From an uncultured Gammaproteobacteria bacterium (GTDB lineage: Bacteria; Pseudomonadota; Gammaproteobacteria; SZUA-140): DNA of 37,962 nucleotides. Under the pieces are notes generated by a model. The model was not told the origin of the DNA. It saw nothing but the letters and a program-made list of their open reading frames with translations, and did not search any database. The translations under genes and the position numbers were made by a program. Location: contig CALZHD010000046.1 in NCBI GenBank assembly GCA_945787155.1, forward strand, positions 1-37,962, written 5' to 3'. Shown piece after piece: positions 10,508 through 37,962 of this stretch (position 1 is the first letter of the stretch; the number at the start of each line of letters is the position of its first letter).

Positions 10508-13393
10508 TTAAATCGAATGTGTTTCATTAGCAAGGTCAGGCTCTCCACAACGCTGCAGGATATCTTTACGTGATGCATCGCGCAGCTTCAGGGCAACCGT
10601 CCATGTGTTATCGGTCGCCTTTTCTTTAACCCTGTCGGGGTAAATAACTTCGCCAAAGGTCACCGTAATCGCACCATGATGTGGAAACCAGGTATCCGAG
10701 CGCAGAATAGAACGGGTACCGCGGATGGTGACGGGGACAACCGGCAGCTTCGCCTCTGCCGCGGCCACAAAGGCACCCATATGAAAAGGCAGCAGGCCAG
10801 CAACACGTGTGAAGGTCCCCTCGGGGAAAAACACCAGTGATTGCCCCTGCTGTGCAAGCCTGGCCAGGTGCCGAGCATCGGTGATTCCCTTCTGTTGGTC
10901 AAATCGCTCCACGAACTCTGCCTGGATGCGACTGAGAAAGAGACGGGGAATCAGGCGTTGCAGCAGTTCCGCCTTGGCGACAAAACTGAATTGACGTGTG
11001 AATGCCGCCACCAGCACCGGGCCGTCAAGATAACTGGCATGATTGGCCACAAACACACAGGGCTGATCGGATGGCGGCAGGTGCTCCAGGCCCTGGACTT
11101 TGAAGGGGGTGCCTGTCGTCCGTGCCAGCAGACGTGCACCAGCACGAATGGCCGCCCAACGCCATCTAATGGGTGGCAGTGTCGCTGCCGCCAGCCATAC
11201 CAGTGGTGCAAGCATCCAGAAAAGCAGTCGGGCATAAATCCCATACAACCTTGTTACCAGGGTCTGTCGAAGACGACGTAATTGTGGTCTCAATGCGGTC
11301 AGCGCCACATGCAAGATCTGCAACATGTTCGATTTCTGAGTTTTGCCGATCTGCCCAGACTCGTAGAGTTCTCGGCTTGCCGCACGACGAATTTTGCCAC
11401 TCGAAGTCTTGAGGATACTGTTTGGTGGGGCCAGGACCACATCATCGGGCGGCGTTTCTGTCAGGTCTGTCGCAATCACATTGATCTGGTGCTGCAACTG
11501 CTCCAGCGTCCTGGGGTCTTTTTCCCGCGTTTCTGCAATCACCACTAATCTTTCAGTACCTGAGCCAGGATCATGACTTGCAAAGGCGGTCACTCGTCCT
11601 TTTCTTATCCCATTCAGATTGCCTATCGCCTCCTCCAGCTCATCGGGATAGATATTGCGCCCAGCACGAATAATGACATCCTTGCTACGACCCGTGATAA
11701 ACAGATCACCAGCCGACATATAACCGAGGTCACCGCTATTCAGCCATTCTTTATCAAACAGCCGGGCGGTTTCCTCCGGATTGCGCAAATAGCCGCTGGT
11801 GGCCGACGGCCCACGAAACTGGATACGCCCTTCCTGTCGATCTGGCAGTTCAAGCCCTGTCGGATCAACGATACGAATTTGATGGCCTGGCAATGCCTGG
11901 CCACTGGCAACGAAACGCAATGCTTTCGGCTCTGCATGCGCGACAGGGATAGCGCGGCCGGAGCGCATAAAAGGCTCGCGCTGGATTGGGTCGACGATCA
12001 TTGCCCGCCCATAGGGCGGGAAGGCAAGCCCAACAGAACATTCTGCCAGGCCGTATACCGGCTTGAGTGACTCTTTTCGCAGGCCGTATTGCTGAAATCG
12101 ATGGTAGAAATTCAACATCGTATCGGGACTGACGGCCTCTGCTCCATTAAATGCAGCACGCCATGTGCCAAGATTAAGCCCTTCGATATGAGCATCTTTG
12201 ACTCTGTGCAGACATAACTCGTAGCCAAAGTTGGGGGCTGCCGCAAGCGTGCCACCGTAACGGTGAATGGCCCACAGCCAGGCGTGTGGCCGCAGCAGAA
12301 ATTCCAGCGGCGACATCACAACAAACAGGGCTGCATAATAAAGGCTACCAAGCCAGGCCCCTATCAGCCCCATATCATGATAGAGGGGTAACCAACTGAC
12401 AAAAACGTCTGAACTATCTGCCCTGACCACTTCCCCCATGGCTCTAATGTTGGCCAACAGATTGGCATGGGTTAATACTACCCCTTTTGGATTACCGGTG
12501 CTGCCAGAGGTATATTGTAAAAAAGCAATGTCCTGTGGACCATGTGCCGGCATAGTGAATGTGTCCACCCCGGCTGAAAGCTCATCCACAGTGACAATAC
12601 TCCGCAGTGACTCCACCTGTAATTTAAGCAGTTGGGCAACTCGCTTCGCCTCAGGCACAGTAATCAGTATCGTGGCGAGGCAATTGGACAAAATGGAGGC
12701 ATGGCGACGCAGATGTTCCTCAAGCTGAGAGCGTCGCACTGGTGGATAGATGGGTACCGGGATGCCCCCAGCCAACAGGATGCCGAAAAAGCTGAAAAAA
12801 TAACTGCTGCCGGTGGGCAACATAATAGCGACCGCATCACCCGCTTGCAGACCACGCCCCTGTAGCCCGGCGGCTAATCTCTCTGCACCCTGCCATAACT
12901 GCTGGTAGGTAAGGGCTTCACTTTCGCCTTTATCTGCACTGGCATGGCTATAAAAGTGTATATGAGGGCGGTCTGGATGGGCCTGCACGTGCCATTGCAA
13001 AACCTCTATCAAGGTATTCGTACTACGAGGCACCGCTTCTGCCTCAGCCAGGCTTAGCTCGCCTGTTTCAACAGCCATGCTCGGTTTTGTCTGGGCACCT
13101 GCGCTTAGCACAGCACGCAGTAGATCGCGCGGTGTTTCTGCTTCAGCAAATACCCGCTCTGGTAAGGTAACAGCGAAGCGCTGCTCAATACGCGCAAGCA
13201 GTTCCACCCGGGCCAGGCTATCCAGGCCAAGATCACTCATGAGTTCACTATCGAGTGTCACAAGCTGGCTGGTAACGTGGTGCGGACGAAGTTCCGCAAC
13301 CAGCCCCTGAACTAGCTGGAATAGCGCAGCAGTAATATCATCGCTTGTGTCGCTATAATCCTCACTCGCCAGTCGCTGCATCACATTCTCCAC
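10508..13393 (-). CDS. ACP / fatty-acyl-AMP ligase / PlsC acyltransferase fusion
   Basis: A 961-aa three-part lipid enzyme. Residues about 20-97 are an acyl-carrier domain with the phosphopantetheine site LGLDSL (Ser59). Residues about 125-690 are an AMP-binding ligase with YTSGSTGNPKGV (294-305), an FAAL-like N-terminal layout (IPVPIYPPVRRSQLEEHL) and a C-terminal lysine region (LKTSSGKIRR). After two hydrophobic segments (about 707-735) residues 750-950 form a PlsC-type acyltransferase with NHASYLD (784-790) and FPEGT (856-860). The order implies that a fatty acid is adenylated, loaded on the built-in carrier, then transferred to a lysophospholipid-like acceptor at the membrane. Function differs from E. 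coli Aas by having its own ACP at the N-terminus. It is monocistronic here. Confidence 0.88.
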   Translation of the reverse strand: MENVMQRLASEDYSDTSDDITAALFQLVQGLVAELRPHHVTSQLVTLDSELMSDLGLDSLARVELLARIEQRFAVTLPERVFAEAETPRDLLRAVLSAGAQTKPSMAVETGELSLAEAEAVPRSTNTLIEVLQWHVQAHPDRPHIHFYSHASADKGESEALTYQQLWQGAERLAAGLQGRGLQAGDAVAIMLPTGSSYFFSFFGILLAGGIPVPIYPPVRRSQLEEHLRRHASILSNCLATILITVPEAKRVAQLLKLQVESLRSIVTVDELSAGVDTFTMPAHGPQDIAFLQYTSGSTGNPKGVVLTHANLLANIRAMGEVVRADSSDVFVSWLPLYHDMGLIGAWLGSLYYAALFVVMSPLEFLLRPHAWLWAIHRYGGTLAAAPNFGYELCLHRVKDAHIEGLNLGTWRAAFNGAEAVSPDTMLNFYHRFQQYGLRKESLKPVYGLAECSVGLAFPPYGRAMIVDPIQREPFMRSGRAIPVAHAEPKALRFVASGQALPGHQIRIVDPTGLELPDRQEGRIQFRGPSATSGYLRNPEETARLFDKEWLNSGDLGYMSAGDLFITGRSKDVIIRAGRNIYPDELEEAIGNLNGIRKGRVTAFASHDPGSGTERLVVIAETREKDPRTLEQLQHQINVIATDLTETPPDDVVLAPPNSILKTSSGKIRRAASRELYESGQIGKTQKSNMLQILHVALTALRPQLRRLRQTLVTRLYGIYARLLFWMLAPLVWLAAATLPPIRWRWAAIRAGARLLARTTGTPFKVQGLEHLPPSDQPCVFVANHASYLDGPVLVAAFTRQFSFVAKAELLQRLIPRLFLSRIQAEFVERFDQQKGITDARHLARLAQQGQSLVFFPEGTFTRVAGLLPFHMGAFVAAAEAKLPVVPVTIRGTRSILRSDTWFPHHGAITVTFGEVIYPDRVKEKATDNTWTVALKLRDASRKDILQRCGEPDLANETHSI

Positions 13394-18672: not shown

Positions 18673-18850
18673 CGGCCGGGTTTAGCACTACCTGAGCGTT
18701 GAGATGGGGAGGTGTTCATGGCTAAAGATGCACTGGATTCCTGAATAATGGATAGGATATTGTGTTACAAAGAGAGGCCTGCAAGTAGAAGAGGGAAAGG
18801 TGTTGAACAAATAGCTGCATACTCATTCGTATATTAATGGAGGTGGTCAC

Positions 18851-19300
18851 ATGTCTGCTGGAAAATACTGTAACCGGGAAGTCATCATTACCGGGCAGGA
18901 TGCCACTGTCATTGAGGCCGCGAGGCTTATGCGCCAACATCATGTTGGCGATCTGGTGGTGGTCGAAAAGCGCGGTGAAGAAAACATGGCGGTCGGGATC
19001 GTTACCGATCACGATCTCGTCATTGAAGTGCTTGCGCAGGAAGTCTCACCTGACTCAGTGACCATTAAGGATGTGATGAACCGCGATCTCGTCACGGTCA
19101 GCGAGGACGAGACATTACTCGATACCCTGGCACTGATGCAGCGTCGTGGTGTTCGTCGGGTGTTGGTCAATAATCGCCACGAAGGGCTGGAGGGTATCTT
19201 GAGCGCCGATGATGCGCTCGAGCTGATTGCCGAGGCGATGAACAGCCTCGTCAAGCTTGTCAGGCGCGAGATTTCGCATGAAGCGCAACAACGCCCGTGA
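18851..19300 (+). CDS. Tandem CBS-domain protein
   Basis: A 149-aa protein made of one CBS pair (Bateman module). The first CBS spans about residues 8-62 (ATVIEAARLMRQHHVGDLVV ... GIVTDHDLVIEVL). The second spans about 72-130 (MNRDLVTVSEDETLLDTLAL ... GVRRVLVNN, ILSADDALELI). Such modules sense adenine nucleotides or SAM. The SAM synthetase just upstream makes SAM sensing an attractive but untested idea. GGAGGTGGTCAC precedes the ATG. A short basic C-terminal helix follows (VRREISHEAQQRP). Confidence 0.88.
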   Translation: MSAGKYCNREVIITGQDATVIEAARLMRQHHVGDLVVVEKRGEENMAVGIVTDHDLVIEVLAQEVSPDSVTIKDVMNRDLVTVSEDETLLDTLALMQRRGVRRVLVNNRHEGLEGILSADDALELIAEAMNSLVKLVRREISHEAQQRP

Positions 19301-31389: not shown

Positions 31390-32925
31390 GTGCGAAAAAT
31401 AAATCAGGTACAAAAAGTGGTAGATTCGACGATAAACACCGGTTTTAAATTTGATAATAGCTATGTTGAACAACTAGCAGGGTTTTATGTTCCATTTGCT
31501 GGCGATAGAGCGCCTGAGCCAGAACTGATTAAACTCAATCGACCGCTTGCCGAAGAGTTGGGGCTTGATTTAGTTCATTTGCAGGCAGAAGATATTGCAA
31601 AAATTTTTTCGGGCAATGTTATGTCGCAAGGTGCAGCACCCGTGGCACAGGTCTATGCCGGGCATCAGTTCGGCGGTTTTAGCCCCCAGTTAGGGGACGG
31701 GCGGGCATTGTTGCTTGGTGAGGTGATTGACTCTTCCGGCAAGCGCCGCGATATTCATTTGAAAGGTTCCGGTCGCACACCATTTTCTCGCGGCGGTGAT
31801 GGTAAAGCAGCGCTTGGGCCGATGTTGCGTGAATATATTATTAGCGAGGCAATGTTCGCGTTGAATATTCCGACCACTCGCGCTTTAGCGGTGGTGGGTA
31901 CGGGTGAAAAAGTCATCCGCGATAGTGGATTACTGCCCGGTGCGGTGTTCGCGCGTGTTGCGGCTAGCCACATACGGGTTGGCACGTTTGAATATTTTTC
32001 AGCACGCCATGAAACAGACAAAATAAAACAACTTGCAGATTATACGATTCAACGTCATTACCCAGAATTAAAGCTAAAACAGAAAGAAAACCAAAGCAAA
32101 AATCCATATCTTGCTTTAATTTCCGAAGTGCGTGATCGTCAGGCTTCACTGCTAGCAAGGTGGATGTTAATGGGTTTTATACATGGCGTAATGAATACCG
32201 ATAACATGACAATCACTGGTGAAACAATTGATTATGGCCCGTGTGCGTTTATGGATAGTTATGATCCTGCAACCGTCTTCAGTTCCATCGATAGACAAGG
32301 ACGTTATGCCTATCAGAATCAGCCACCCATTGGGCAGTGGAATCTCGCGCGGCTGGCTGAGACCTTGTTGCCTTTTGTTCATTCAGATCCTGATACAGCA
32401 GTCGAACTGGCAACTCACGAAATTAATCTATTTTCTGAGCGTTACCAGCAATATTGGTTAGATGGCATGCGATCTAAACTTGGGTTTTCAACCAAAGAAG
32501 CTGATGATCATAGATTAGCTAACGAACTTTTGCAGGCGATGGAAGGGCAGGATGTTGACTTTACACAGTTGTTTCGTCGCCTGGCGGATTCATTGCGTGG
32601 CGACATAGAGTGCATCAGAAATTTATTTGATGACTTTGAAAAGTTTGACCAGTGGCATGAGCGCTGGCTTGAGCGCCTGGTTCGTGACCCTATGAGTGTT
32701 GATGACAGAATTGCTTCGATGAATTGTGTTAATCCGGTTTATATTCCTCGCAACCACAAAGTGGAAGAAGCCATACAGGCTGCTGAAGCGGAATCAAATT
32801 TTGCCCCGTTTGAAAAACTGGTAGAGGTACTCGCTAATCCGTTTGAAGAAAGAGACAGTCTGGATGAGTATGAAGAGCCAGCACCTGATAGTTTTCCGCC
32901 TTATAAAACATTTTGTGGTACCTGA
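31390..32925 (+). CDS. selO: SelO/YdiU protein AMPylase (pseudokinase)
   Basis: A 511-aa member of the SelO family, pseudokinases that transfer AMP from ATP to Ser/Thr/Tyr of target proteins, in E. coli linked to redox homeostasis. Family blocks are intact: QVYAGHQFGGFSPQLGDGRA, HLKGSGRTPFSRGGDGKAAL, GPMLREYIISEAMFALNIPT, HGVMNTDNM (metal-binding loop) and IDYGPCAFMD. It ends FCGT, with Cys at the place that is Sec in animal SelO. The start is GTG at 31390 with AAGG upstream. Flanked by direct repeats and preceded by a palindrome, so the gene may have moved as a unit. Complete. Confidence 0.93.
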   Translation: MRKINQVQKVVDSTINTGFKFDNSYVEQLAGFYVPFAGDRAPEPELIKLNRPLAEELGLDLVHLQAEDIAKIFSGNVMSQGAAPVAQVYAGHQFGGFSPQLGDGRALLLGEVIDSSGKRRDIHLKGSGRTPFSRGGDGKAALGPMLREYIISEAMFALNIPTTRALAVVGTGEKVIRDSGLLPGAVFARVAASHIRVGTFEYFSARHETDKIKQLADYTIQRHYPELKLKQKENQSKNPYLALISEVRDRQASLLARWMLMGFIHGVMNTDNMTITGETIDYGPCAFMDSYDPATVFSSIDRQGRYAYQNQPPIGQWNLARLAETLLPFVHSDPDTAVELATHEINLFSERYQQYWLDGMRSKLGFSTKEADDHRLANELLQAMEGQDVDFTQLFRRLADSLRGDIECIRNLFDDFEKFDQWHERWLERLVRDPMSVDDRIASMNCVNPVYIPRNHKVEEAIQAAEAESNFAPFEKLVEVLANPFEERDSLDEYEEPAPDSFPPYKTFCGT

Positions 32926-33446: not shown

Positions 33447-33767
33447 ATGGATGAAGTAATAAAAAAATTAAAAGAGTTTCGTGATGAACGTGACTGGCAA
33501 CAATTCCATAATTCTAAAGACCTGGCTTTAGCTTTAAGCATTGAGTCAAGCGAATTGCTAGAAGCCTTTTTATGGAAGTCACCTGAAGAGGCTGATATTG
33601 ATAAAGTAAAAGAAGAACTTGCGGATGTGTTTTCCTATGCCTTGTTGCTAGCAGAAAATTATGAGTTGGATGTACAACAGATTATTCTCGAAAAAATTGA
33701 GCAGAACCAAAAGAAATATCCCGTAAGCAAAGCGAAAGGATCTGCCAGAAAATATACAGAATTATGA
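33447..33767 (+). CDS. MazG-like nucleotide pyrophosphohydrolase
   Basis: A 106-aa all-alpha NTP pyrophosphatase that would hydrolyse (d)NTPs to monophosphates. The start is placed at ATG 33447, preceded by GAGGGTG, rather than the TTG in the track. Metal-binding carboxylates follow the MazG pattern ExxE...ExxD: Glu33/Glu36 (SIESSELLEAF) and Glu57/Asp60 (EELADVFSYALLL). The C-terminal Lys-rich tail (KYPVSKAKGSARKYTEL) is typical of the dCTPase/RS21-C6-like branch. Its stop overlaps the next gene by 4 nt (ATGA), so the two products are made together. Confidence 0.88.
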   Translation: MDEVIKKLKEFRDERDWQQFHNSKDLALALSIESSELLEAFLWKSPEEADIDKVKEELADVFSYALLLAENYELDVQQIILEKIEQNQKKYPVSKAKGSARKYTEL

Positions 33768-35950
33768 GTCATCAGCATCTAGTTGAAGTAAATCGTTTTG
33801 CGTTTACGCAGGCGGCACTGGATGATATCCGAAACAATGCCTATGCCAGTAATCATTGGCCTTTGGTCTATGTGTTGAGTGGGGGCAAAAAAAAGTTTGC
33901 ATATATTGGTGAGACCACGGATACACTCATCCGCATGTGCTCACACCTGCGGGACGATAATAAAAAACGATTAACCTCAGTGCATTTGATCAGTAGCGAG
34001 CGTTTCAATAAGTCAGCAACACTGGACATAGAATCCAGCTTGATCAGGTACATGGCTGCTGATGGTAAGTTTTCCCTACTTAATGGTAATTTGGGCCTGG
34101 TAGACCATAACTATTACCAGAAGGAAGATCTTTATGCTCCGATCTTCAGGGAGGTGTGGAATAAGCTTCGCAGAGAAGGAGTGGTCGAACATTCACTGGA
34201 ATTTATTGATAATTCCGATTTATTCAAATATTCACCCTACAAATCACTTTCCTTTGACCAGCGTCAGGGGTTGCTCGGCATCATGTATGCGTTGCTGGAT
34301 GATCAGGTGAATAACTTGGTAGTTCAGGGTGGCGCCGGTACGGGTAAATCAGTTTTGGCGATATTTTTATTTAAGCTGATGCACTCCGATGGCAGTGATG
34401 TGAATTTCCGCGAGTTTTCCGACGAGGAAGGCGAACTGTGTGATTTACTGAAGCGTCTAAAACAGCGTTATAAAAAGCCAAAAATGGCTTTGGTCGTGCC
34501 AATGACGTCTTTCAGGAATACTCTAAAAAAAGCCTTTAGACATATTGCTGGTTTAAGTGCAGACATGGTCATTAGCCCCTCTGAGCTGGCGAAAAAAAAG
34601 TACGACATTATTGTGGTGGATGAGTCACACCGTTTGCGAAAGCGTGTGAACCTGGGTGCTTATTATGGTGCTTTTGATAAGGCTTGTGTGGCACTGGGGT
34701 TTGATAAAGGAACTTGCAGTGAAGTGCATTGGGTATGTAAGCAGTCAAATAAGGCTGTTTTCTTTTATGATGAAAGCCAATCTATCAAGCCTTCGGATGC
34801 CAACCCTGAGGATTTTGATTCGCTGATGGCAGAAAGTGCGACGCAGGTTCAGGCGCTGGTTTCACAGTTTCGTGTTGGTGGTGGTAATGCCTATGTGGAC
34901 TTTGTGGATGCTTTACTGAATGTTCGGTTGCAGGCAGGTAAACAGTTTAGCTCAAGGCGTTATGAGTTTGCTTTGTTTGATTCCATAGAAGATATGGTAT
35001 CTACCATTCAGCAAAAGAATGAGAAATTTGGTTTGTCACGTTTGATTGCGGGGTATGCATGGCCTTGGGTTTCAAAAAAAGACGAAAAGCTCTTTGATAT
35101 TAAAATTAAAGATACCCAGTTGCGCTGGAATAACACCAATACAGACTGGATCAATTCAAAGAATTCTGAGCAAGAAGTAGGCTGTATTCACACTACACAG
35201 GGTTATGATCTAAATTATACAGGCATTATTTTTGGCGAGGAAATCACCTACGATAAGGCGCGCGATGAAATTGTGATTGATGAAAATAAATATTTTGATC
35301 GCAATGGTAAGCAAAGCATCCATGATCCTGCTGAATTAAAGAAATACATTCTGAATATTTACAAGACCATTATGCTTCGTGGTATCAAGGGGGCATTTGT
35401 CTATGCGTGTGATGACGGCCTGCGGGACTATCTGGCAGAGCATATTCCCATGCATCGTTCAGCGACCGAAAAGAAAAAGGAAGCAGTTGTTGAATTGAAA
35501 CCTTTTGTTAATGCCGTGCCTTTTTATGATTTACAGGCAGCGGCAGGTGGCTTTAGTGAACTTCAACAGGCCGAACATACCGAGTGGGTAGTAGTTCCGG
35601 AAGATGTGAAAGTGAGTGAAAGTCTGTTTGCCTGTAATGTGGTGGGGGAATCCATGAATAAGGTGATATCCAATGGTGCTACCTGTCTTTTTCGTCTTGA
35701 TCGTGGTGGAAGCCGCAATGGCAAGATTGTTTTAGTGGAACACAGCGATGTAATTGATGGTGACAGTGGATCCCATTACACCGTTAAAGAGTATGAAAGT
35801 TTCAAGGTAGAAGATAACAGTGGATGGCGTCATCAAAAAATTCTGTTGAAACCGGTTTCCTATGACAAGGCCTTTGACGTATTGGAAATAACAGAAGATA
35901 AGTCATCACATTATCATGTGATTGGGGAGTTTTTGAGAGTATTGGGATGA
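33764..35950 (+). CDS. GIY-YIG / DUF2075 ATPase / LexA-like autoprotease fusion
   Basis: 728 aa in three parts. (1) Residues about 32-110: a GIY-YIG-like nuclease domain, with VYVLS, 8 residues, then YIGE (47-50), Arg57 and a candidate catalytic Glu90 (DIESSLI). (2) About 160-575: a DUF2075 superfamily-1-like P-loop ATPase, with Walker A GGAGTGKS (189-196), Walker B IIVVDESHR (282-290), FFYDESQS, VSQFRVGG and HTTQGYDLNYTGIIFG. (3) About 585-728: an S24/LexA/UmuD-type domain with FYDLQAAAGGFSE, VGESMNKVISNGA (Ser630) and YTVKEY (Lys675), laid out as in LexA. The Ala594-Gly595 bond is where LexA cleaves itself. It is translationally coupled to the MazG-like gene. A role in phage defence or damage response is inferred. 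Confidence 0.85.
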   Translation: MSHQHLVEVNRFAFTQAALDDIRNNAYASNHWPLVYVLSGGKKKFAYIGETTDTLIRMCSHLRDDNKKRLTSVHLISSERFNKSATLDIESSLIRYMAADGKFSLLNGNLGLVDHNYYQKEDLYAPIFREVWNKLRREGVVEHSLEFIDNSDLFKYSPYKSLSFDQRQGLLGIMYALLDDQVNNLVVQGGAGTGKSVLAIFLFKLMHSDGSDVNFREFSDEEGELCDLLKRLKQRYKKPKMALVVPMTSFRNTLKKAFRHIAGLSADMVISPSELAKKKYDIIVVDESHRLRKRVNLGAYYGAFDKACVALGFDKGTCSEVHWVCKQSNKAVFFYDESQSIKPSDANPEDFDSLMAESATQVQALVSQFRVGGGNAYVDFVDALLNVRLQAGKQFSSRRYEFALFDSIEDMVSTIQQKNEKFGLSRLIAGYAWPWVSKKDEKLFDIKIKDTQLRWNNTNTDWINSKNSEQEVGCIHTTQGYDLNYTGIIFGEEITYDKARDEIVIDENKYFDRNGKQSIHDPAELKKYILNIYKTIMLRGIKGAFVYACDDGLRDYLAEHIPMHRSATEKKKEAVVELKPFVNAVPFYDLQAAAGGFSELQQAEHTEWVVVPEDVKVSESLFACNVVGESMNKVISNGATCLFRLDRGGSRNGKIVLVEHSDVIDGDSGSHYTVKEYESFKVEDNSGWRHQKILLKPVSYDKAFDVLEITEDKSSHYHVIGEFLRVLG

Positions 35951-36085
35951 TGATGTATAGAAGGAAAAAGAGGGCGACAACAAACGCGAATGATTTAGAT
36001 CTGTCACTGACCCCTTTATCCTTTAAAGCAGGCTCACATTACTGAGAATTGAATAAAATGCCTAAGCTAATTATAGAATGTATTT

Positions 36086-36172
36086 CTCGTTCCCACGCTC
36101 CTGCGTGGGAACGCATACGGTGGTAGAGTCTGGTTGCGGTATGGATTCCCACGGGGGACCGTGGGAACCAGG
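36086..36172. repeat. REP doublet, copy 1
   Basis: An 87-bp unit of two palindromes. GTTCCCACGC-TCCT-GCGTGGGAAC (36089-36112) and TTCCCACGG-GGGA-CCGTGGGAA (36146-36167) are joined by GCATACGGTGGTAGAGTC. It is followed by three tandem CCAGGTA units just before the RAYT gene. The same doublet recurs downstream of that gene in the same orientation. Confidence 0.88.
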
Positions 36173-36213
36173 TACCAGGTACCAGGTAACTAGAAAGAGG
36201 AAGGAGTAAGCAA

Positions 36214-36743
36214 GTGGGTAGAAGCCGTTACAAAATAGTTGATCCAAAACAACCCCATTTCATTACTTGCACGGTATTGCACTGGATACCTGTATTTACC
36301 CGGCCGGCGACTGTTGACATCGTTCTGGACTCTCTGCGTTTTCTAATGGGCGAGGGTTTAAAGGTTTATGCCTATGTCATTCTGGAGAATCACCTGCATC
36401 TGCTTGTACAAAGTGAACAGCTGGATGTTATATGCGAAGGTTTAAATCTTATACGGCTAAGGAGTTAATTCAATATCTGGATTCGCAAAATATAAAACAG
36501 ATACTTGAGCAGTTGGCTTTTTACAAGAAGGCGCATAAAGATGATCGGGCCTATCAATTCTGGCAGGAAGGTATTCACCCGGAGTGGATTCAAAATAGTG
36601 AAATGATACGGCAGAAGGTTACTTACATTCATGAGAATCCGGTCAAACGAGGTTATGTTGATTTAGCTGAGCATTGGCGATATTCGAGTGCAAGAACTTA
36701 TGCAGGGCAAGAGGGCTTGTTGGATGTTTGCATGGAGTGGTGA
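36214..36743 (+). pseudogene. RAYT (REP-associated tyrosine transposase), frameshifted
   Basis: A single-strand Y1-type IS200-like transposase associated with REP sequences. The 5' part (GTG start, GAGGAAGGAG upstream) has MGRSRYKIVDPKQPHFITCT and the HUH motif ENHLHLLVQ (about residues 63-71). The 3' part, in another frame, carries MRRFKSYTAKELIQYLDSQN and YIHENPVKRGYVDLAEHWRY with SSARTYAG. The two frames join near 36430, where one base is missing between QLDV and MRRFKSY. Apart from this the protein is full length, so it is a fresh mutation, a frameshift-expressed gene, or a sequencing error. Confidence 0.85.
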
Positions 36744-36756
36744 GCATGGTTCTTTC

Positions 36757-36843
36757 CTCGTTCCCATGCTCCAGCGTGGGAATGCATACGGTGGTAGAGT
36801 CAGCCCGAGGTATGGGTTCCCACGGGGGACCGTGGGAACCAGG
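36757..36843. repeat. REP doublet, copy 2
   Basis: Same 87-bp unit and orientation as copy 1. The second hairpin (TTCCCACGGGGGACCGTGGGAA) is identical; the first differs by C-to-T changes that leave one G-T pair. Together they bracket the RAYT gene, the usual form of a REPtron. Confidence 0.88.
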
Positions 36844-36860
36844 GAACTGGAAGAGGCGGC

Positions 36861-36949: not shown

Positions 36950-37962
36950 ATGAGCGCGAAAAAGTATCAACCCCCGTTTACCTTTACCAGCCAGATCGTT
37001 GAGCGGGTTTCGGTGATTAGTGAATTACTTGGGGCGTGGAGTGAGCGTAGCGGCACAAGTTTGACGCCTATGCTACGCCGTGGAAATCGCATCAAGACGA
37101 TTCAGGCTTCGCTGGCCATTGAACACAATACGCTGAGCATTGAACAGGTCAGCGCGGTGATTGAGGGTAAGCCGGTTTTGGGGCCGCCCCGCGAAGTCCA
37201 GGAAGTGCGTAATGCATTCGCCGCCTATGAAAAACTGGAGCAGTGGCAAGCGAGTAACGAAGGGCATTTGCTCGAGGCCCATAGTTTGTTGATGCGCGCT
37301 TTAATAGAAGATGCCGGTCACTATCGTGCCGCTGGTGTGGGAGTTTATGACGGCGACACGCTGGTGCACATGGCGCCGCCTGTGAATCGGGTAGCAGGAC
37401 TGATGGCTGATTTACTTGGTTGGCTGCGTGATACGGACTTGCCGCCATTGGTTTCCAGTTGTCTGTTTCATTATGAGTTTGAGTTTATCCACCCTTTTGC
37501 CGACGGCAATGGCCGTATGGGGCGTTTGTGGCAGACCTTGATTCTGTCCGGCTGGCGTTCCGAGTTGGCCTGGTTGCCCGTGGAAAGCGTCGTGCGTGAT
37601 CGTCAGCAGGCTTATTACGCGGCGCTCGCGGTAGCTGATCAGGCCGCAGATGCGACCGCTTTTGTGGCTTTTATGCTGGAATCACTGGAGCAGGCCTTAA
37701 TCGATGCGTTGCAGCAAAATGAAGAGACAAGTGAGGAGGTAAATGACGGGGTAAGCGAGCTATATGATGGCCGTTTAAGCGTCAAGCTGGATGCGCTGGA
37801 CCGGCAATTATTGGCATTATTTGTTGAGCAACCTTATGTCACGCAGCAGCAGCTTGTGGAACTGACCGGGAAATCATTGAGCACGATTCAGCGCCGTATT
37901 CGTAAATTGCGCCAACAGCACCTTGAACGGGTAGGGTCGGATAAATCGGGTTACTGGCGGGT
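36950..37962 (+). CDS. Fic-domain protein AMP-transferase, 3' end cut by window edge
   Basis: Fic proteins usually transfer AMP to Ser/Thr/Tyr of target proteins. 337 residues are visible, starting MSAKKYQPPFTFTSQIVERV. The Fic core is complete: HPFADGNGRMGR (181-192). An N-terminal inhibitory-helix motif of the class II type is present as SLAIEHNTLS (Ser54, Glu58), with His where Gly is usual. A C-terminal winged-helix begins at about residue 280 (QPYVTQQQLVELTGKSLSTI). The family is generally 340-380 aa, so only a few dozen residues are lost. Absent from the ORF track because no stop is in the window. It lies just beyond a RAYT element and a candidate defence locus. Confidence 0.9.
   Translation, partial: MSAKKYQPPFTFTSQIVERVSVISELLGAWSERSGTSLTPMLRRGNRIKTIQASLAIEHNTLSIEQVSAVIEGKPVLGPPREVQEVRNAFAAYEKLEQWQASNEGHLLEAHSLLMRALIEDAGHYRAAGVGVYDGDTLVHMAPPVNRVAGLMADLLGWLRDTDLPPLVSSCLFHYEFEFIHPFADGNGRMGRLWQTLILSGWRSELAWLPVESVVRDRQQAYYAALAVADQAADATAFVAFMLESLEQALIDALQQNEETSEEVNDGVSELYDGRLSVKLDALDRQLLALFVEQPYVTQQQLVELTGKSLSTIQRRIRKLRQQHLERVGSDKSGYWR

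Follow-up and report, generated by a model that had tools for sequence, protein, structure and literature searches.

Which role could be served by two overlapping genes, one for a MazG-like nucleotide-clearing enzyme and the other for a nuclease-helicase that ends in a LexA-type self-cleaving domain, is the question raised by a module on contig C46 of an uncultured gammaproteobacterial genome (3.19 Mb, 94.6% complete). In the window, i.e., the whole stretch of 37,962 nucleotides that was analysed, both genes lie on the forward strand: a 106-aa protein is encoded at 33447..33767 and a 728-aa protein at 33764..35950, the start of the second overlapping the stop of the first (ATGA). The coordinates, reading frames and overlap are those given in an initial annotation made from the sequence alone. 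The module has a GC content of 41-44%, against mostly 50-60% across the first 28 kb of the window, and its surroundings (SelO, RAYT-like ORFs with REP repeats and a Fic protein) do not constitute a classical defence island.

Several features of these flanks may be recorded in passing. The SelO gene 5' of the module (31390-32925) shows only ~41-50% identity to its sister-genome copies, and a second, partial SelO match is present in the source genome (G000:C2). At 36083-36850, two ORFs in different frames (36214-36468 and 36432-36743) lie between two copies of a REP-like palindrome of 97 nt that are 87% identical; the ORFs gave no Pfam match and resemble a RAYT-type transposase disrupted by a frameshift. 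Further downstream, at 36950-37960, is the gene of a Fic/DOC-family protein whose C-terminal domain is a winged helix; it runs off the window.

The smaller protein was initially annotated as a MazG-like enzyme. The family assignment is borne out by Pfam (PF12643, E=1.3e-17), but the generic label gives way to a more specific one: the closest solved relatives of this all-alpha NTP pyrophosphohydrolase are dCTP pyrophosphatase 1 / RS21-C6, matched with a single sequence (chain 6sqw, E=5.9e-19) and by profile (E=2.9e-31). Four acidic residues predicted to serve in catalysis as metal ligands, E33, E36, E57 and D60 of the ExxE...ExxD motif, are invariant across 9 aligned sequences, and the protein ends in KYTEL. 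DCTPP1-type enzymes are nucleotide-pool cleaners; DCTPP1 (RS21-C6) shares its family and conserved residues with the small protein of the module, but in animals it is a stand-alone pool-cleaning enzyme, whereas the version described here is operonic with a nuclease-helicase.

At the N-terminus of the large protein (~residues 33-119, positions 33860..34120), a nuclease-like GIY-YIG domain had been proposed, and this holds, although the Pfam score in the window protein itself is sub-threshold (15.0 bits vs a cut-off of 22.6). The cut-off is exceeded in the orthologues L003 (Pseudomonas sp. Irchel 3E13; 23.4) and L008 (25.2), every GIY-YIG-type homologue keeps the motif residues Y36, YIG (47-49), R57 and E90 (the window motifs being VYVLS and AYIG), and PADLOC PDC-S14 models match residues 32-109 (E=5e-6). 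The central part (residues 185-550, positions 34316..35413) matches PF09848, SLFN-g3_helicase, formerly DUF2075, along profile positions 4-354 of 354 (E=3.9e-65). Its Walker A (GGAGTGKS) and Walker B (VDES) sequences, together with further helicase motifs, are conserved across homologues, and in a structural comparison the modelled helicase, from a nuclease-helicase model of modest confidence (pTM 0.59), resembles the SF1 enzymes Dna2, RecD2, Upf1 and Pif1, as well as SLFN14. The DUF2075 family named in the initial annotation thus stands, while its description as a bare P-loop ATPase is to be replaced by a Schlafen-group-3, SF1-related helicase.

Another group of homologues (L010, L011, L042-L051, L056-L082) carries the same helicase, S24 domain and MazG partner behind a different N-terminal domain, whose 'RVDFIL...VELKQW' region reads, by its motif, as PD-(D/E)XK-like and would replace GIY-YIG. 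A further possibility is RNA-targeting abortive infection, in which the effector would act on tRNA or other RNA like Schlafen proteins and the S24 tail would restrain a toxic RNase. Such a role is suggested by the Pfam placement of the helicase in Schlafen group 3 and by SLFN14 among the structural matches; we nevertheless consider it very unlikely, since the nuclease modules are of GIY-YIG or PD-(D/E)XK-like types, usually DNases, and the Schlafen (SLFN) RNase core gave no Pfam match in the window protein at E<=1.

The C-terminal domain (residues 576-728, positions 35489..35947) belongs to Peptidase_S24 (PF00717, E=2.4e-6, above its cut-off). A sequence search returned no solved-structure match for this domain, and it was fold comparison alone that gave matches: with an AlphaFold model of residues 576-727 (13 sequences, mean pLDDT 82), the best PDB matches by Foldseek were to lambda CI on the RecA filament (E=1.5e-5, TM 0.70 by target length), and further top matches comprised a hyper-cleavable lambda repressor fragment with its cleavage site and LexA, alone and RecA-bound. 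In the full-length model, the tail aligns with LexA from a RecA complex (8trg_I) over 150 columns at 2.5 A. The LexA-type fold proposed for this region in the initial annotation is therefore recovered, and the predicted scissile bond Ala594-Gly595 (35543..35548), the predicted nucleophile Ser630 of the GESM motif (35651..35653) and the predicted general base Lys675 of the T-V/I/L-K-x-Y motif (35786..35788) lie exactly where it placed them. The site-to-Ser and Ser-to-Lys spacings, 36 and 45 residues, fit those of LexA (35 and 37) and lambda CI (38 and 43). The tail thus shares with LexA, lambda CI and UmuD the fold, the (A/C)-G site, the Ser-Lys dyad and the spacing; unlike them, the module protein has no DNA-binding domain, its S24 domain being fused behind a nuclease-helicase. 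Among five phage records weakly matched by the tail are phage repressors and a helix-turn-helix protein.

Each of the 67 distinct, complete S24 domains in the subfamily has the (A/C)-G site, a serine in GESM/GDSM and a lysine in TxK, and even the clearly divergent S24 of a Nomurabacteria homologue (gene L008:8001-10151) has an intact Ser-Lys dyad, with Cys-Gly instead of Ala-Gly. The retention of site and dyad in this divergent domain suggests that selection acts on cleavage and not on one particular tail sequence. Tails can be recruited for dimerisation, and a purely structural tail, used in dimerisation or DNA docking after the loss of cleavage, has to be weighed; the presence of the scissile Ala/Cys-Gly and of the dyad in all 67 domains, and their survival in the divergent S24 of L008, make it highly doubtful. 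As a separate observation, the L008 S24 domain looks as if it had been swapped for a different LexA-like one.

The association with MazG, posited in the initial annotation, is conserved across genomes: a MazG gene adjoins every S24-bearing homologue whose surroundings were read (65/65). The GIY-YIG clade and one PD-type clade have it upstream, with frames overlapping or abutting, whereas in Halomonas-type genomes it lies downstream of the helicase gene; in L078 the downstream distance is 1 kb; the MazG copy of L002 is frameshifted. Nuclease-helicases that lack S24 are found in other phyla and in archaea, and several of them also have a MazG partner. These SLFN-g3 / DUF2075 (PF09848) proteins share the nuclease-helicase core with the module but have no S24 tail and are often plasmid-borne or found in other phyla. 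Of 18 S24-less loci sampled, 7 have an adjacent MazG gene, among them loci from Bacillota (a Priestia plasmid, within a restriction locus), archaea (Halalkalicoccus), Bacteroidota (Marivirga), Gammaproteobacteria and one unannotated faecal contig. The idea of a MazG pairing confined to the S24 form was consequently dropped: the pairing is wider, and the union of MazG with the nuclease-helicase probably predates the S24 form. No described system was found for the S24-less pair of SLFN-g3 helicase and MazG.

The same relatives make the S24 domain look like an add-on, in at least two lineages. On a helicase-domain tree of 38 rows, in which the placement of several S24-less rows is uncertain owing to long branches, the distribution of S24 takes 3 changes to explain, of which at least 2 are required by branches with good support, so that two nuclease-helicase scaffolds have between them seen more than one gain or loss of the tail. 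Two minor observations concern the history of the MazG gene itself. In L117, two similar MazG copies (12223-12579 and 18712-19110) enclose a segment of some six genes, an arrangement reminiscent of a cassette insertion that duplicated MazG, and a 27-codon remnant of a MazG start (L007:2790-2870), located ~5 kb from an intact module, suggests an earlier copy.

In a check that the initial annotation had proposed, defence genes proved to be enriched around the homologues: 92 non-redundant neighbours match 267 PADLOC models, and 92 control proteins from arbitrary regions of homologue-carrying genomes match 7 (E<=1e-8), a tally of models matched rather than of proteins, as one protein may match many. 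Among individual neighbours, one in L114 matches GajB over its full length (E=2e-235), L118 contributes a NERD-UvrD helicase, and OLD/AriA-like ATPases are encoded in L116 and, close behind the module, in L008; Pfam matches among the neighbours comprise AbiEii-family, HipA-type, PIN and cytosine methylase genes. It can be added that in Halomonas-type genomes (L108, L110-L114, L118, L012) an AbiEi/AbiEii-looking gene pair often directly follows MazG.

The distribution is patchy, with the module in 1/20 genomes of the family of the window and 9/399 of its phylum, and in 25/163 and 37/275 genomes of two richer families; S24-less relatives and a small number of partial or S24-only matches are counted in these figures. 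A virus origin was rejected, the IMG/VR scan having given one partial relative and three short Walker matches; GenBank phage records gave 4 matches, of which 3 are unannotated faecal contigs.

These data also speak to a role in DNA repair or genome maintenance, in which an SOS-responsive helicase-nuclease would act on damaged or modified DNA beside a DCTPP1-like pool sanitiser, with no dedicated anti-phage function. The general pool-cleaning activity of DCTPP1-type enzymes, the resemblance of the helicase to Dna2 and RecD2, and a LexA-type tail that fits a DNA-damage response are all consistent with such a role. It appears improbable, however, in view of the patchy distribution and low GC, the strong over-representation of defence genes around homologues, with linkage to R-M, AbiE-type and Gabija genes, and the occurrence of S24 on a DruE-like helicase as well.

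The domains, the catalytic residues, the MazG linkage, the modularity and the defence-island context of the homologues are all legible in the sequence; cleavage activity, its trigger, the direction of the switch, the MazG substrate and phage defence are inferences. The reading towards which we lean, with limited assurance, is that of a nuclease-helicase for defence that has spread horizontally, carries its own gate in the form of a self-cleaving tail of LexA type, acting in cis, and is accompanied by a dNTP-pyrophosphatase partner; the two-gene module would probably serve against phages. It would act against phages or mobile elements, the SF1-type helicase feeding DNA (or RNA) to the N-terminal nuclease, which is GIY-YIG in the window module and PD-(D/E)XK-like in sister clades. 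The S24-less core would be the working effector, which the S24 tail would restrain until self-cleavage. Infection or DNA damage would provide the cue, most plausibly through the RecA-ssDNA filament, by analogy with LexA, CI and UmuD, whose self-cleavage this filament usually triggers, and cleavage at Ala594-Gly595 would remove the tail, leaving a protein organised like the S24-less homologues found in nature. The DCTPP1-type partner could either drain (modified) dCTP from phage replication or clear from the host pool those nucleotides through which host DNA would become a target. Together, the self-cleaving tail and the constant MazG pairing suggest a direct link between a DNA-damage signal and immunity.

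The host genome encodes LexA, but the operon itself is not evidently under its transcriptional control: the best upstream candidate for an SOS box differs at 3 of the 8 specified bases, a fit that shuffled sequence also attains, and upstream of homologous operons no SOS box was found beyond chance. The LexA-like protein IrvR is reported to work without RecA (PMC7101444), and this precedent, together with the operon lacking an SOS box, weighs against a simple RecA story.

The switch could also run the opposite way, because cleavage inactivates LexA and CI. The uncleaved protein, probably S24-dimerised, would then be the active form, and RecA-triggered cleavage would shut it off during SOS, sparing host repair intermediates. 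It is established knowledge that cleavage of LexA and CI splits off their dimerisation domain, the S24 fold is the same, and the presence of LexA in the host agrees with this direction; on the other hand, S24-less relatives with the same core are presumably active without a tail, and cleavage is what activates UmuD and, in Hachiman and AVAST, the nuclease-protease pairs (PMC12799240). On balance, a switch-off by cleavage seems rather unlikely, and release of a restrained effector is the direction retained here.

With regard to known systems, the initial annotation had put forward no named system of this composition, and none came to light in PADLOC, NCBIfam or the open-access papers searched. 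PADLOC 2.0 gave no match for the MazG protein and, for the large protein, partial matches to AbiO, Nhi and PDC-S14 along with weaker ones, with no full-length two-protein system; PADLOC and NCBIfam together hold no full-length model for either protein. The AbiO and Nhi helicases show a distant likeness (E ~1e-8), partial and confined to the helicase domain. AbiO, Nhi, PDC-S14 and Druantia were accordingly rejected as identities of the window proteins, their matches being partial or absent. A union of DUF2075 with GIY-YIG or MazG was not found in the open-access papers searched, where the five that mention DUF2075 were set aside as irrelevant. An S24 tail goes unmentioned in the publications consulted on YprA helicases, on nuclease-protease pairs and by Kaur et al. 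(2020). The principle of a protease-gated nuclease is shared with the Hachiman/AVAST pairs (PMC12799240), but there a trypsin-like protease acts in trans within a two-gene cassette, whereas the module has a Ser-Lys autoprotease in cis. Such nuclease-protease pairs have been acquired repeatedly by unrelated immune systems (PMC12799240). The module would belong with nuclease-helicase defence, a known kind; the recurrent LexA-type tail is possibly a general new principle.

This recurrence extends beyond Schlafen-group-3 helicases. In L099, the same S24 subfamily ends a 1981-aa DruE-like helicase (L099:2572-8517, G796:C34; DruE model E=3.8e-118), which is followed by MkoA, MkoB and ZacB homologues in a Mokosh/Zaca island. 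The tail thus connects the module with Druantia and Mokosh, which differ from it in helicase superfamily and partners, the window module having neither a Dru nor an Mko protein. A PLD-DEAD-DUF3427 helicase with an S24 tail is encoded at L100:9236-15556 (G765:C1) with a Nudix gene upstream; its tail is split by a three-gene insertion, the helicase ending in S24 positions 8-51 and positions 48-153 resuming ~2.5 kb on, and the insertion looks like an IS66-type element. At L105:8241-15112, MazG, a PD-type SLFN-g3 helicase-S24 protein and a 1282-aa methyltransferase-PLD-DEAD-S24-DUF3427 protein stand in a row. DUF3427 is predicted to bind modified DNA (Kaur et al., PMC7159879), and from this prediction combined with the DCTPP1- or Nudix-type partners we infer a possible link of these helicases to modified nucleotides.

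It may be hypothesized, tentatively and as somewhat less than probable, that a mobile LexA/CI tail has repeatedly joined unrelated defence helicases (GIY-YIG/PD-(D/E)XK-like Schlafen-group-3, DruE-like and DUF3427-PLD), making them direct post-translational readers of RecA-ssDNA (SOS), two of them with an NTP pyrophosphatase of their own (MazG/DCTPP1 or Nudix). If so, immune effectors would be switched by the same self-cleavage as LexA and prophage repressors, a general principle of "SOS-gated immunity" that would bypass transcription and quickly couple immunity to the state of the DNA in the cell, and the pairing of helicase-nucleases with deoxynucleotide-removing enzymes would be a recurrent one. 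The gene row of L105 is also shared by L103 and L104, with the last protein split into two ORFs in L104.
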